Position numbers and translations under genes: made by a program. Source: Candidatus Magasanikiibacteriota bacterium (lineage in GTDB: Bacteria > Patescibacteriota > Patescibacteriia > Magasanikbacterales > UBA922). From it: DNA of 36,161 nucleotides. Of the stretch, positions 13,673 through 18,113 are shown piece by piece. The notes under the pieces are model-generated. The model saw only the letters and a list, made by a program, of their open reading frames with translations, did no database searches and was not told the origin of the DNA. Position 1 is the stretch's first letter. Each line of letters starts with the position of its first letter. The DNA lies in the NCBI GenBank assembly GCA_002716765.1, contig PBBY01000009.1:1-36161 (forward strand), read 5' to 3'.

Positions 13673-14848
13673 TTATAACTCTTTTTGAGTTAGTTTTTGT
13701 ATCTGTGGTAAAGTCTTAAATATATCTTCAAGACCGCCTCCGTTATCACTATCATAGATAGCATCTCCTTGAAAGTCTGTGTTATCGATAAAAATAGTTC
13801 TTATCTTGGATAAATCTGCTTCCGTACTAACATTCCCAGAAATAAAATCAGTAATACTTTTTAATGTCCCTAAAACCTTTTTAACATATTGACCAGCAGG
13901 AATAGATCGCTCTCGAAAAGCAAAATTATTTCTTATACCTTTGTCTGAGTGAACAAAGTTTATCGTTACTGCATAGCCCATTTTTTGCGCCTCTTCTATT
14001 GCCTGAAGTATTGACGGTAAATGAGAAAAAGTAACCTCTCTTACCACCGACAACTGTTGCTCCAAAGCCTTTTCTTGTAATACATCAGCAACAAAGCAGC
14101 TCTCATCGTGCAACTCTCTTGTTAACTCAATATTATCTTCGGTATATTCTGGATGTAAATCATGCTTTAATTGATCGGGGCTAATTACTAAATACTGACC
14201 AGTCTCTGCTGACTCTGCCTTATCTACAAAAAAACTCTTTCCCACTCCAGGTAAGCCTGCTACGAGTACAAACTGAGGCGGACCTTCTTTGGGTTTTTCT
14301 GTTTTTTCTAAATTTGCACCAACTACTCGTTCTATCAGCGAAACTCTTTCTGGTGATTTTAATCTATTCTGTTCTAGGTTATCCAAAAATAGCGACACAC
14401 TTGCCCAACCTCTTTCATCCAAATCATAGCACGCATGCTTGGTCAGCGACGATGCTATTTCACTTAATTCTTTATTTCTTTGATTTCCTTTAGAATGTTC
14501 AACAAATTGTGTAATATACTCCCTATCTCCTCGTTTTACCGCTGACAGTAATGACAAATAGTCCTGTATTGAGTCAATTCCACCAAGGAGCAACTTTTTT
14601 CTTGTATTCTCCCTACTTGTTTCTAAAGTACTTTCAACCCACACCATGTCCGCCTCCGAAGTAGTGGCAGGCTCTTTAACAAGTTCCATAAGTCTTCGGC
14701 GATCCTGAGACTCTAACACAAAAAATTCAACTGTAATAGCCATATCCCGCAACACTTCGGGAGAGATCTCATTTTCAACCTGTTTACTATCTATACTAAA
14801 GCTCCCAGGTAAGATTGACTCAACCTTTTTACCCTCTTTGTAACTCAT
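13673..14848 (-). CDS. Zeta-toxin-like P-loop kinase with N-terminal extension
   Basis: A 391-residue protein. Residues 1-190 are an unrecognised, largely helical region. Residues 191-391 resemble the zeta toxin / AAA_33 P-loop family: Walker A GLPGVGKS (198-205), an ISPDQLKHDLHPEY segment (222-235) matching the zeta substrate-binding Asp region, REVTFSH (270-276), and a basic lid segment FRERSIPAGQ (311-320). Zeta/PezT toxins phosphorylate UDP-N-acetylglucosamine; whether this one does is not shown. The next gene downstream encodes a small acidic protein. A housekeeping P-loop kinase is the alternative. It has an extended -10 promoter and no Shine-Dalgarno sequence. Confidence 0.7.
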   Translation of the reverse strand: MSYKEGKKVESILPGSFSIDSKQVENEISPEVLRDMAITVEFFVLESQDRRRLMELVKEPATTSEADMVWVESTLETSRENTRKKLLLGGIDSIQDYLSLLSAVKRGDREYITQFVEHSKGNQRNKELSEIASSLTKHACYDLDERGWASVSLFLDNLEQNRLKSPERVSLIERVVGANLEKTEKPKEGPPQFVLVAGLPGVGKSFFVDKAESAETGQYLVISPDQLKHDLHPEYTEDNIELTRELHDESCFVADVLQEKALEQQLSVVREVTFSHLPSILQAIEEAQKMGYAVTINFVHSDKGIRNNFAFRERSIPAGQYVKKVLGTLKSITDFISGNVSTEADLSKIRTIFIDNTDFQGDAIYDSDNGGGLEDIFKTLPQIQKLTQKEL

Positions 14849-14952: not shown

Positions 14953-16707
14953 TTACCACGTCACTTTTTCACGTATTTCTTTTTGTATTTTTTCAATAAA
15001 TACATTCTTTGATAACGTTTCTTGTTCTTCGGTACCACGCTTTCGTATACACAAGTCCTCTCCGGCTAATTCTTTTTCTCCTACAACCAAAATATATGGT
15101 GCTTTTTGTGTTGCGGCTTTACGTATTTTTTTCCCAACTGTTTCGTCTGCTTCATCTACTTCTGTGCGGACTCCCGCATCGCGTAATTCTTTTGCCAAAT
15201 CTTTTGCACCAGCCAAATGTTTTTCGGTAGAAACCGGAACAATATGCACCTGAACCGGAGAAAGCCACAATGGAAATGCACCTGCAAAGTGCTCTATTAA
15301 AACTGCCATAAATCTTTCATATGAGCCCAAAATAGCCCGATGAATCATAACTGGTGTTGCTTCTTTACCGTCTTTATCTGTATACACCAAACCAAAACGT
15401 TTAGGCATATTAAAGTCTAGTTGGACTGTTGCAAGCTGCCATTCTCGACCCAGAGAATCTTCGAACATAAAATCAATTTTTGGACCATATATTGCTGCTT
15501 CACCCTCTACTCTTTTTGCATCTAATACTAATTCTTTTGCCATTTCCTCAAGCATAGATTCTGCCATATCCCAGTCCTCGGTTTTACCAATATATCCATC
15601 TGGATTTTTTGAATCACGAACAGATAAAGAAACCCAATGTTTTCCATATAAACCAAGACCGGTGTAAAACGTCTCGATAATCTTACATAAATTTACCACC
15701 TCTTCTTTTATTTGCTCTACGGTACAAAAAGTATGACCATCGTCACATGTAATAGCACGCACACGGGTAAGACCGCCAATTTCACCGGGCTTTTCGTCAC
15801 GGTATTGTATAGTAGATTCCATGTAGCGCAAAGGTAAGTCTCGGTAGCTACGTGGCCGAGAAGCGTAAATTTGCGTATGGTGGGGACAATTGACCGGCTT
15901 CATTACAAACTCATCATAATGGCTTACAACCCGTATTAATTCATCACCAAACTTATCTGCATGCCCAGAAGTTTCATACAAGGCCCTTTTTGCAATATGT
16001 GGAATACTCACAGGCTGCATACCATACTCCTTCCCTGCATCTAAAAGTGCTTGCTGTAGTTGATTTCTAATGATTGTTCCTTTTGGTGTAAACAGTGGCA
16101 AACCTGGACCAACCAAATCAGAAAAGGTGAACAAATCTAGTTCTTTTCCTAACTTTCTATGATCTCGTTTTTTTGCTTCCTCAACCATTGCCAAATAGTT
16201 TTTTAGCGCTTCTTTATTTTCAAATGCCACACCATAAATTCTTGTAAGCATTTTGTTTTTTTCATCTCCTCGCCAATAGGCTCCGGCAATTTTTGTTAAC
16301 GCAAATGCCCGTCTGTCTATTTCTTTTGTTGTTGCAACGTGCGGTCCTTTGCACAAGTTTTCAAAATTACCAGATTTATAAAAACTTACTTCTGTTTCAC
16401 CTTCTTTTTGTAAATCAGTAATAAGGGCTGTTTTATATTCATCATCTTTATAAAAATCTAATGCTTTTTCCACATCCATGCTGTATTGTTCAAAAGCAAT
16501 CCCTTCTTTAATTAATTCCTTCATTCTTTGTTCTAGTTTTGACAATACATCTTCGGAAATTTTTTCTGGTAAATCATAATCCTGATAAAACCCATTTTCT
16601 ATAACAGGCCCAACACCAAGTCCGGCATTGGGATACAATTCTAATACAGCCATGGTCATAATATGTGACAAAGAATGGCGTATATTTTCTATTTTTTGTT
16701 GATCCAT
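14953..16707 (-). CDS. thrS: Threonyl-tRNA synthetase lacking the TGS domain
   Basis: A 584-residue class II synthetase charging tRNA-Thr. The N-terminal TGS (N1) domain of the ~640-residue bacterial enzyme is absent. The protein begins with the editing domain, whose zinc/catalytic residues are intact: HxxxH at H11/H15 and CxxxH at C119/H123 (CKGPH). The core follows with motif 1, PVNCPHHTQIY carrying the catalytic-zinc Cys, motif 2 around RDEKPGEIGGLTRVRAIT, DDGHTFC, and motif 3 MIHRAILGSYERFMAVL. The anticodon-binding domain is C-terminal (VQVHIVPVS...DLCIRKRG). It is controlled by the T-box leader just upstream and has no Shine-Dalgarno sequence. Loss of TGS does not abolish editing in the family. 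Confidence 0.97.
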   Translation of the reverse strand: MDQQKIENIRHSLSHIMTMAVLELYPNAGLGVGPVIENGFYQDYDLPEKISEDVLSKLEQRMKELIKEGIAFEQYSMDVEKALDFYKDDEYKTALITDLQKEGETEVSFYKSGNFENLCKGPHVATTKEIDRRAFALTKIAGAYWRGDEKNKMLTRIYGVAFENKEALKNYLAMVEEAKKRDHRKLGKELDLFTFSDLVGPGLPLFTPKGTIIRNQLQQALLDAGKEYGMQPVSIPHIAKRALYETSGHADKFGDELIRVVSHYDEFVMKPVNCPHHTQIYASRPRSYRDLPLRYMESTIQYRDEKPGEIGGLTRVRAITCDDGHTFCTVEQIKEEVVNLCKIIETFYTGLGLYGKHWVSLSVRDSKNPDGYIGKTEDWDMAESMLEEMAKELVLDAKRVEGEAAIYGPKIDFMFEDSLGREWQLATVQLDFNMPKRFGLVYTDKDGKEATPVMIHRAILGSYERFMAVLIEHFAGAFPLWLSPVQVHIVPVSTEKHLAGAKDLAKELRDAGVRTEVDEADETVGKKIRKAATQKAPYILVVGEKELAGEDLCIRKRGTEEQETLSKNVFIEKIQKEIREKVTW

Positions 16708-16723: not shown

Positions 16724-16772
16724 AAAAAACCCCGGTATACACCACAAAACTAGTCTGTGATATATACCGGGG
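16724..16772 (-). terminator. T-box leader terminator of thrS
   Basis: On the minus strand CCCCGGTATA (16763-16772) pairs perfectly with TATACCGGGG (16730-16739), with additional CACA/TGTG pairing inside, followed by six T residues (16724-16729). Its 5' arm is also the 3' arm of the antiterminator, so the two structures exclude each other. Confidence 0.92.
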
Positions 16773-16931
16773 TCCACGTGGACGGTTCCACCCGATTGTT
16801 TTACTTTTTTATATTGTTGTATACTCCAAAATTGGTACCATACCATCGTTTTCATAAAAAGGTTCTCAGTCTATGACCTTTTTTTCCTGTATGAACGTAT
16901 TGGCTGGGCTGGATTTTGTACGATCGTATTA
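16724..16931 (-). promoter_or_regulatory. T-box riboswitch of thrS
   Basis: The leader of about 200 nt between promoter and thrS holds the T-box core GGGTGGAACCG (minus strand, 16783-16793). It folds as a canonical antiterminator: helix A1 CGGG/CCCG, the 7-nt bulge UGGAACC, helix A2 GUCC/GGAC and an ACGU loop. The CCCG arm overlaps the 5' side of the terminator. A candidate Stem I pairs 16921-16929 with 16840-16848 (one G-G mismatch) and encloses a hairpin AAAAAAGGT/ACCTTTTTT. I could not place the specifier codon with certainty; Thr codons ACC and ACG occur on the 3' side. By the known mechanism, uncharged tRNA-Thr binding would stabilise the antiterminator and switch thrS on. Confidence 0.9.
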
Positions 16932-16936
16932 GTGCT

Positions 16937-16965
16937 ACTGTACGATATTACATCTATTTTGTCAA
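16937..16965 (-). promoter_or_regulatory. Promoter of the T-box/thrS transcript
   Basis: On the minus strand TTGACA (16960-16965), a 17-bp spacer ending TATCG and TACAGT (16937-16942). It sits 3 nt past the stop codon of the upstream gene, giving a leader of about 220 nt. Confidence 0.8.
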
Positions 16966-16967
16966 GA

Positions 16968-18113
16968 TTATTGCACTTCTTTTACAACAATACTGACATG
17001 ATCATGCATATGAGGTACTGTGCGCATCCATGCTGGCTGAAAATGAACATCTACTTTATGGATATGATCTAGGGAAAGTAAATATCTTCGAACCTCGTCT
17101 TTCGTTTTGCCGAAAAAATCACTTTTATCTAAATCTCTGTTTTCTGTACTTAGTGTTACCAATCCATCGTGAAAAACAGTAAATGTTGCTGTATTATCTC
17201 TTTCATTGTAGTCAGAAAAAGTTACATTCGGATCGTCGTTACTTGCTTGCACAGTTTCTCCTTCATCTATTGCTCGTTTTGCTAACTGTAACCCAACCCA
17301 ATCTTTTAGCATTGTTTTGTCGTATAACATACTTACAACAGTAACCTGTGTTTTTAATACAAAACTGTCTACTTCTGAACCAATTGCGGTTTCTGTATTA
17401 CTACTTGTATCTAGCACATGAAACACACCAACCAAATTTGGGTATTGTTCAGACATTTCTTCTGCTACTTGTTTTTTTACTTTTTCTTCCGTGTTTTTTT
17501 CTGCTCTGGAAATGTCTTTTTCGGAAAGTGCACCAATTTTCTTAATACCGCCAGTCATTGGTTCTATGCTTGTAGCATAAATTACTGCCTGTTTTGTTTT
17601 ATTTAATCCTGGAATAGTAAAGGATGATGCGGTGATATTACTTACTGACCCTTTTTTATCTGCATAGACTTCTACGTCTTCTAATGTGCCATTTGCTGGA
17701 ACAGTAACACGATTTTTTAGGCGAAATAATACACCGGAACTAGTAAGAAGTCTAGTAGTGGCAACAAGTGGTTGAGCAGAAGTTGTTTCGTTGTGCAATG
17801 TAACTAAACCAGTTGCAATACCTTCTTCTTCTTTTGTGCCAGTCGGTGAAAATGATTCTTCGATGGTGACTACTTTTTTCTTTACGATACTGCGAATATT
17901 ATGTGTACTCTGTGGATCTCCTAAAACTACCTTTGTGGTAATATCTACCGGAGACGGTTTTGTAGTTATTACTATTTCAGCGCGTTTTGAAGACATAAAC
18001 ACCACCACTCCAAGCAAAATAACCGTAAGTACTAAAAAAGTAAGTGCAATAAATTTATAAAAACGCACCGGTTGTTCTACCTTGTATGAAGATTGTGATC
18101 GTCTTGTGACCAT
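16968..18113 (-). CDS. Single-pass membrane protein with baseplate-J-like segment
   Basis: A 381-residue protein with a short cytoplasmic N-terminus, one transmembrane helix (about residues 23-42) and a large extracytoplasmic part. Residues about 100-190 contain GLVTLHNETT...VPANGTLEDVEVYADKKGSVSNITASSFTIPGL, a pattern resembling the 'A..G...N' region of baseplate J/gp47-like proteins. A polar helical stretch (about 205-230, Lys/Glu-rich) and a mixed C-terminal domain follow. The function is not established. It lies directly downstream of the PilB/GspE-type ATPase on the same strand, so a role in an envelope-spanning pilus or secretion apparatus is a reasonable guess. The ATG is 8 nt after an extended -10, suggesting a leaderless mRNA. 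Confidence 0.75.
   Translation of the reverse strand: MVTRRSQSSYKVEQPVRFYKFIALTFLVLTVILLGVVVFMSSKRAEIVITTKPSPVDITTKVVLGDPQSTHNIRSIVKKKVVTIEESFSPTGTKEEEGIATGLVTLHNETTSAQPLVATTRLLTSSGVLFRLKNRVTVPANGTLEDVEVYADKKGSVSNITASSFTIPGLNKTKQAVIYATSIEPMTGGIKKIGALSEKDISRAEKNTEEKVKKQVAEEMSEQYPNLVGVFHVLDTSSNTETAIGSEVDSFVLKTQVTVVSMLYDKTMLKDWVGLQLAKRAIDEGETVQASNDDPNVTFSDYNERDNTATFTVFHDGLVTLSTENRDLDKSDFFGKTKDEVRRYLLSLDHIHKVDVHFQPAWMRTVPHMHDHVSIVVKEVQ

Follow-up and report, generated by a model that had tools for sequence, protein, structure and literature searches.

A probable reduced T-box riboswitch upstream of thrS in a Magasanikbacteria-like genome

Explanations of the T-box mechanism rely on the arm of Stem I, on Stems II and III and on a G-U wobble. 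In a review, Stem III with its RRRxG and AA flanks is described as indispensable for binding of the tRNA end, a basal G-U wobble in helix A2 is said to reject 3'-aminoacyl tRNA, and Stem II is considered essential once the apical arm is missing (PMC7583486). The leader analyzed here occupies 16965-16708 on the minus strand of the window (the whole stretch of DNA that was analyzed, 36,161 nt) and comprises a promoter, the Stem I and antiterminator of a T-box, and a terminator whose formation excludes that of the antiterminator. As judged from its sequence, it resembles the Bacillus subtilis glyQS, tyrS and thrS leaders in the K-turn position in Stem I, the internal specifier loop, the AG-bulge-like and distal-loop segments of the long forms, the UGGN bulge, the opposition of antiterminator and terminator, and the class of gene apparently controlled, which encodes an aminoacyl-tRNA synthetase. 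In contrast to the B. subtilis leaders, the reduced form lacks Stem II or IIA/B, its Stem III is collapsed, the basal pair of A2 is G-C rather than G-U, and a conserved CAGCC lies opposite the codon. In short relatives the elbow-binding apical arm is missing as well, and the sensor, counted from Stem I through the antiterminator, spans only about 112 nt (L057). The reduced form is missed by the Rfam model RF00230.

Class II (translational) T-boxes with a short Stem I, those of Actinobacteria ileS, place the specifier at the tip of a short stem, in its terminal loop (PMC7583486). The same arrangement is found in Patescibacteria in the leaders of glyS and ileS and in some of those of thrS. However, the Patescibacteria leaders end in transcription terminators, and their thrS forms dispense with Stem II, the element reported to be essential if the arm is absent (PMC7583486). 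The specifier and discriminator matching rules of TBDB are the same as those used here; its models rest on RF00230 and an Actinobacteria-derived class II model, and its available text mentions no Patescibacteria form (PMC7778990).

The gene that follows the leader, thrS (14953-16707, minus strand, ATG at 16707), encodes a threonyl-tRNA synthetase of 584 aa (TIGR00418, 660 bits) that is 93% identical to the enzyme of the closest named relative, a Candidatus Magasanikbacteria genome. It was the sole thrS copy found in the genome (a single match in G000), which comprises 886 kb in 22 contigs and is ~90% complete. Directly 5' of the leader lies a gene of 381 aa (16968-18113, minus strand) that has no Pfam match and appears to be membrane-anchored, and the gene 3' of thrS (13673-14848, minus strand) matches Pfam Zeta_toxin and AAA_33 (P-loop kinase).

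All elements of the leader lie on the minus strand. The -35 hexamer TTGACA (16960-16965), which also occurs upstream in many related leaders, is separated by a 17-nt spacer from the -10-like hexamer TACAGT (16937-16942). The first-pass annotation of this DNA had described a consensus promoter; TACAGT matches the consensus only in part. Stem I, which had been thought to be perhaps under 100 nt, measures ~109 nt (16929-16821). Its outer helix P0 pairs AUAC (16926-16929) with GUAU (16821-16824) in the MFE fold, and this pairing is supported by relatives as well. It is followed by an asymmetric internal loop with 7 nt on one side and 2 nt on the other (GAUCGUA/GA, 16919-16925) that is located at the K-turn position and may form a K-turn; the corresponding GUUNGUA/GGAG is conserved in many relatives. 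Helix P1, formed by CAAAA (16914-16918) and UUUUG (16827-16831) and paired in relatives, leads to the specifier internal loop, whose 5' strand is UCCAGC (16908-16913), with its conserved CAGC, and whose 3' strand is UACCAA. Above this loop, CCA (16905-16907) pairs with UGG (16840-16838) in a short helix that leads to the apical arm (16842-16904). The CAGGA and the distal loop GACUGAGA of the arm resemble the canonical AG bulge and distal loop, the double T-loop that binds the tRNA elbow. In a relative, L050, RF00230 scored only 19.4 bits (E 0.013), but its alignment covered the full length of the model, with these apical-arm elements falling on the distal region.

Stem I and the antiterminator are separated only by an A-rich linker of ~25 nt. 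Comparison with the published description (PMC7583486) identified the purine string AAAAG-UAAAACAA (16796-16808) as the RRRxG ... AA motif from which Stem III has been deleted. In the antiterminator, helix A1 is formed by UCGGG (16791-16795), 96% paired in relatives, and CCCGG (16767-16771), and helix A2 by GUCC-ACGU-GGAC (16772-16783). Between them lies the T-box bulge UGGAACC (16784-16790), which is invariant in two alignments of relatives (A1 and A4, below) and whose UGGA complements the tRNA 3' UCCA; the motif GGGTGGAACCG covers 16793-16783. The intrinsic terminator (16724-16773) consists of 20 bp (16773-16729) followed by UUUUUU (16729-16724) and overlaps the 3' strand of the antiterminator. 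Both structures had been proposed in the first-pass annotation, the antiterminator as CGGG/CCCG and GUCC/GGAC around UGGAACC, the terminator as a mutually exclusive hairpin with six T's, and both are present on the minus strand within 16724-16965. They are mutually exclusive because 16773-16767 is common to both. Folded in isolation, the terminator has an energy of -31.4 kcal/mol and the antiterminator one of only -9.7 kcal/mol, a difference that would call for strong stabilization by tRNA. The whole leader folds at -63.1 kcal/mol (z -4.6 vs. shuffles), to which the terminator contributes much; without the terminator the fold is no better than that of shuffles (z -0.04).

No match to RF00230 was found at E<=10 in the leader, searched as stretches of 401 nt and 172 nt, and the gathering cut-off of 93 bits was not reached; this model does not see the reduced form in the window. 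Across the whole genome RF00230 found one unrelated place only (E 0.8). The thrS leaders of relatives were therefore collected for models of their own. In most Magasanikbacteria-like genomes thrS is preceded by CAGCCCAG ... AUGGUACCACUCUCGGAG, then by UCGGGUGGAACCGUC ... GACCCCGA and then by a terminator. An alignment of 16 sequences (A1) supports P1, the CCA/UGG helix, the distal helix and the antiterminator: 95.5% of the cells are paired, 16 of the 24 pairs have changes on both sides, and none of 500 shuffles was as good on the main measures. Shifting the partners by one column left at most 52% paired, roughly halving the paired fraction. In alignment A4, from which the window's own genus was left out, 91.2% of the cells are paired with double changes in 21 of 27 pairs (0/500 shuffles). 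Here P1 is 92% paired with compensatory changes in 5/5 pairs, the CCA/UGG helix above the specifier loop 98% paired, and the distal helix 94.5% paired with compensatory changes in 6/6 pairs. The outer helix P0 is paired in only 58% of the A4 cells; its pairing in 39 relatives was 90, compared with 63.8+-5.9 in shuffles (0/2000).

Model R3, built from A4 and thus from other genera of the order with the window's genus excluded, gave the window leader a score of 104.9 bits (E 4.4e-27). It was the sole credible match in the genome, the next best place having an E of 0.36. Model R2, built from a different architecture with the window excluded, matched this genome only at the antiterminator region (16781-16854). 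Thus, the covariance search that the first-pass annotation had suggested as a check failed with the Rfam model and succeeded with the model of the relatives.

The specifier, which had not been located previously, is ACC (16834-16836), a Thr codon complementary to the anticodon GGU and followed by the purine A. Among 39 related thrS leaders with an internal loop, this position is occupied by ACC in 36, ACU in two and ACA in one, all of them Thr codons. The tRNA-Thr genes found in the genome have GGU and CGU anticodons, and both have U73, the complement of the A of UGGA; a U discriminator had been predicted from the A that follows UGG. Pairing of tRNA-Thr with both the Stem I codon (ACC/GGU) and the bulge (UGGA/U73) is therefore possible. 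In this genome U73 is limited to the tRNAs for Thr and Gly and one that is probably for Cys, so that the combination of ACC and UGGA points to tRNA-Thr(GGU); tRNA-Ile carries A73. Most tRNA genes of the genome (G000, L015-L043) have C at position 74 followed by bases other than CA. The whole CCA is not encoded by these genes, and an enzyme must therefore finish the 3' end after transcription.

The element has the parts of a T-box, its helices covary, and its codon and bulge match the anticodon and discriminator of tRNA-Thr. The leader is very probably a transcriptional tRNA-sensing T-box riboswitch. The binding of tRNA, the response to charging and antitermination would then proceed as follows. 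As it is transcribed, Stem I would display ACC in its internal loop for pairing with the anticodon GGU of tRNA-Thr, a step supported by the comparison of relatives. If the tRNA is uncharged, its free 3' UCCA would pair with UGGA of the bulge and stabilize the antiterminator, as expected from the known T-box mechanism. The terminator requires the same CCCCGG strand and would be blocked, allowing transcription of thrS. Charged tRNA-Thr could not make the UGGA contact, and transcription would stop at the U-run. The first-pass reading of a T-box upstream of thrS in a CPR genome, more precisely a Magasanikbacteria-like one, is supported by the hold-out covariance model, the covariation and the specifier and discriminator matches.

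The window leader differs from canonical T-boxes in several respects. Stem II and the IIA/B pseudoknot are absent. Stem III is absent from the window and from nearly all thrS leaders of the order, which have a few nucleotides instead; by canonical standards, the element is not the complete T-box that it had been called. A string resembling AAAAG-URAAA is kept just 5' of A1 in nearly all members of the order. Several glyS leaders of the same order have retained Stem III, indicating that its loss depends on the gene. The canonical G-U wobble at the base of A2 is replaced by G-C in the window, as it is in 36/38 internal-loop thrS leaders and in 11/11 other leaders scored. These features place the window element in a lineage of reduced T-boxes found in Magasanikbacteria-like Patescibacteria.

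The possibility was considered that the leader is constitutive or a relic, a degenerate T-box that has lost tRNA sensing and retains only a promoter and a terminator. The loss of Stem II, Stem III and the wobble, together with the blindness of RF00230 to the leader, is what such decay would produce. However, the specifier, the bulge and the helices have been kept with compensatory changes across dozens of genera, and the ACU specifier of a sister genome is still a Thr codon that can be read by the same tRNA through wobble. Decay of this kind is accordingly improbable.

The same element was found upstream of other genes. Model R1 matched 71 places in 58 of the 86 genomes of the order. Of 69 matches examined, 65 lie upstream of thrS (52), glyS (11) or ileS (2); three of the remaining four are too near the end of a stretch for the gene to be identified, and one is inside an unrelated gene (L202, E 0.007). 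In one thrS T-box, L190 (G033:C33), Stem I and the antiterminator are unusually far apart, so that the single element is returned as two matches. The glyS leaders combine UGGA with a short hairpin whose loop, read by eye, contains GGC or GGA, and the ileS leaders combine AUC in a 7-nt loop with UGGU. In a genome that has all three leaders (G002), tRNA-Thr and tRNA-Gly have U73, complementary to the UGGA found before thrS and glyS, and tRNA-Ile has A73, complementary to the UGGU found before ileS. The codons and UGGN of the three genes match their own tRNAs, indicating that specifier and bulge change together with the gene, and these other genes provide the best evidence for tRNA sensing.

The glyS and ileS leaders also bear on autoregulation by ThrRS, in which the leader would mimic tRNA-Thr and be bound by the synthetase, as in the E. 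coli thrS operator. The gene is indeed thrS, and Stem I has a loop containing ACC. However, the loop holds a codon rather than an anticodon, a transcription terminator then follows, and this UGGN element recurs before glyS and ileS with codons that fit those genes, making this explanation highly improbable. Finally, the genome contains 13 copies of the bare motif GGTGGNACC, those outside the leader showing no antiterminator, so that the motif alone is weak evidence and GGGTGGAACCG might have arisen by chance between the promoter and terminator of a short transcript, but this origin is refuted by the R3 match of the whole element and by its conservation at the same place in many genera.

If the leader is a tRNA-sensing T-box, the reduced forms could tentatively be grouped as a Patescibacteria family of minimal transcriptional T-boxes, an idea with a little less in its favor than against it. 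Such elements would read the anticodon and the 3' end without Stem II or III, often without the elbow arm (the apical arm is absent in short relatives), and with G-C in place of G-U, and charged tRNA would have to be rejected by a steric arrangement different from that of the solved structure. With most parts gone and the specifier and discriminator pairing kept, they may reveal the irreducible sensor, and the claim that Stem III and the G-U wobble are indispensable becomes directly testable. They also suggest that ultra-small bacteria, which probably depend on hosts, make wide use of uncharged tRNA to control essential genes, and that a large share of this regulation escapes the models now used for annotation.

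T-boxes of this phylum are not new to databases, since RF00230 at E<=0.1 has matches in 136/380 Patescibacteria genomes, above the cut-off in 13. The first-pass annotation had called tRNA-sensing riboswitches little described in Patescibacteria. No paper was found that treats T-box riboswitches together with the Candidate Phyla Radiation, Patescibacteria or Parcubacteria (a weak result, as subscription journals were mostly outside the scope of the search). RF00230 recognizes T-boxes of other Patescibacteria in front of argG, a gene for sulfate adenylyltransferase, and tyrS (L266, L263 and L269), and these may thus control amino-acid and sulfur metabolism as well.

Some members of the order, like other Patescibacteria, have a sister form of the thrS leader. 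Its codon lies in a 7-nt hairpin loop (YNACCAR), and the six pairs that close this loop vary but stay complementary; they are enclosed by an outer helix with GAUUG and CUAA at its flanks. The sequences (alignment A3) were picked by a pattern requiring ACC or AUC in a 7-nt loop with at least four closing pairs, the outer helix being unselected; therefore, independent evidence comes only from the outer helix and from the stem beyond four pairs. The outer helix is 85% paired, with double changes in 4/4 pairs. A GAUU/AAUC helix was dropped as a structure of the sister form; it is the helix outside GAUUG...CUAA that covaries. The specifier (ACC or AUC) occupies loop positions 3-5, like an anticodon loop facing the anticodon, and the hairpin is part of a junction of several helices, marked in the thrS leaders by GAUUG...CUAA. 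A specifier in the terminal loop is not unprecedented, being already known for short Stem I (PMC7583486). The form precedes thrS in L078, L083, L088, L103, L112, L113, L119-L121, L145, L193-L195, L197, L204, L214-L218, L220 and L222-L224, and ileS in L189 and L192. In several genomes, GNAT acetyltransferase genes are located between the T-box and thrS (two genes in L197:579-1671, similar first genes in L180, L205, L214, L218, L222 and L229) and would share the threonine-tRNA control.
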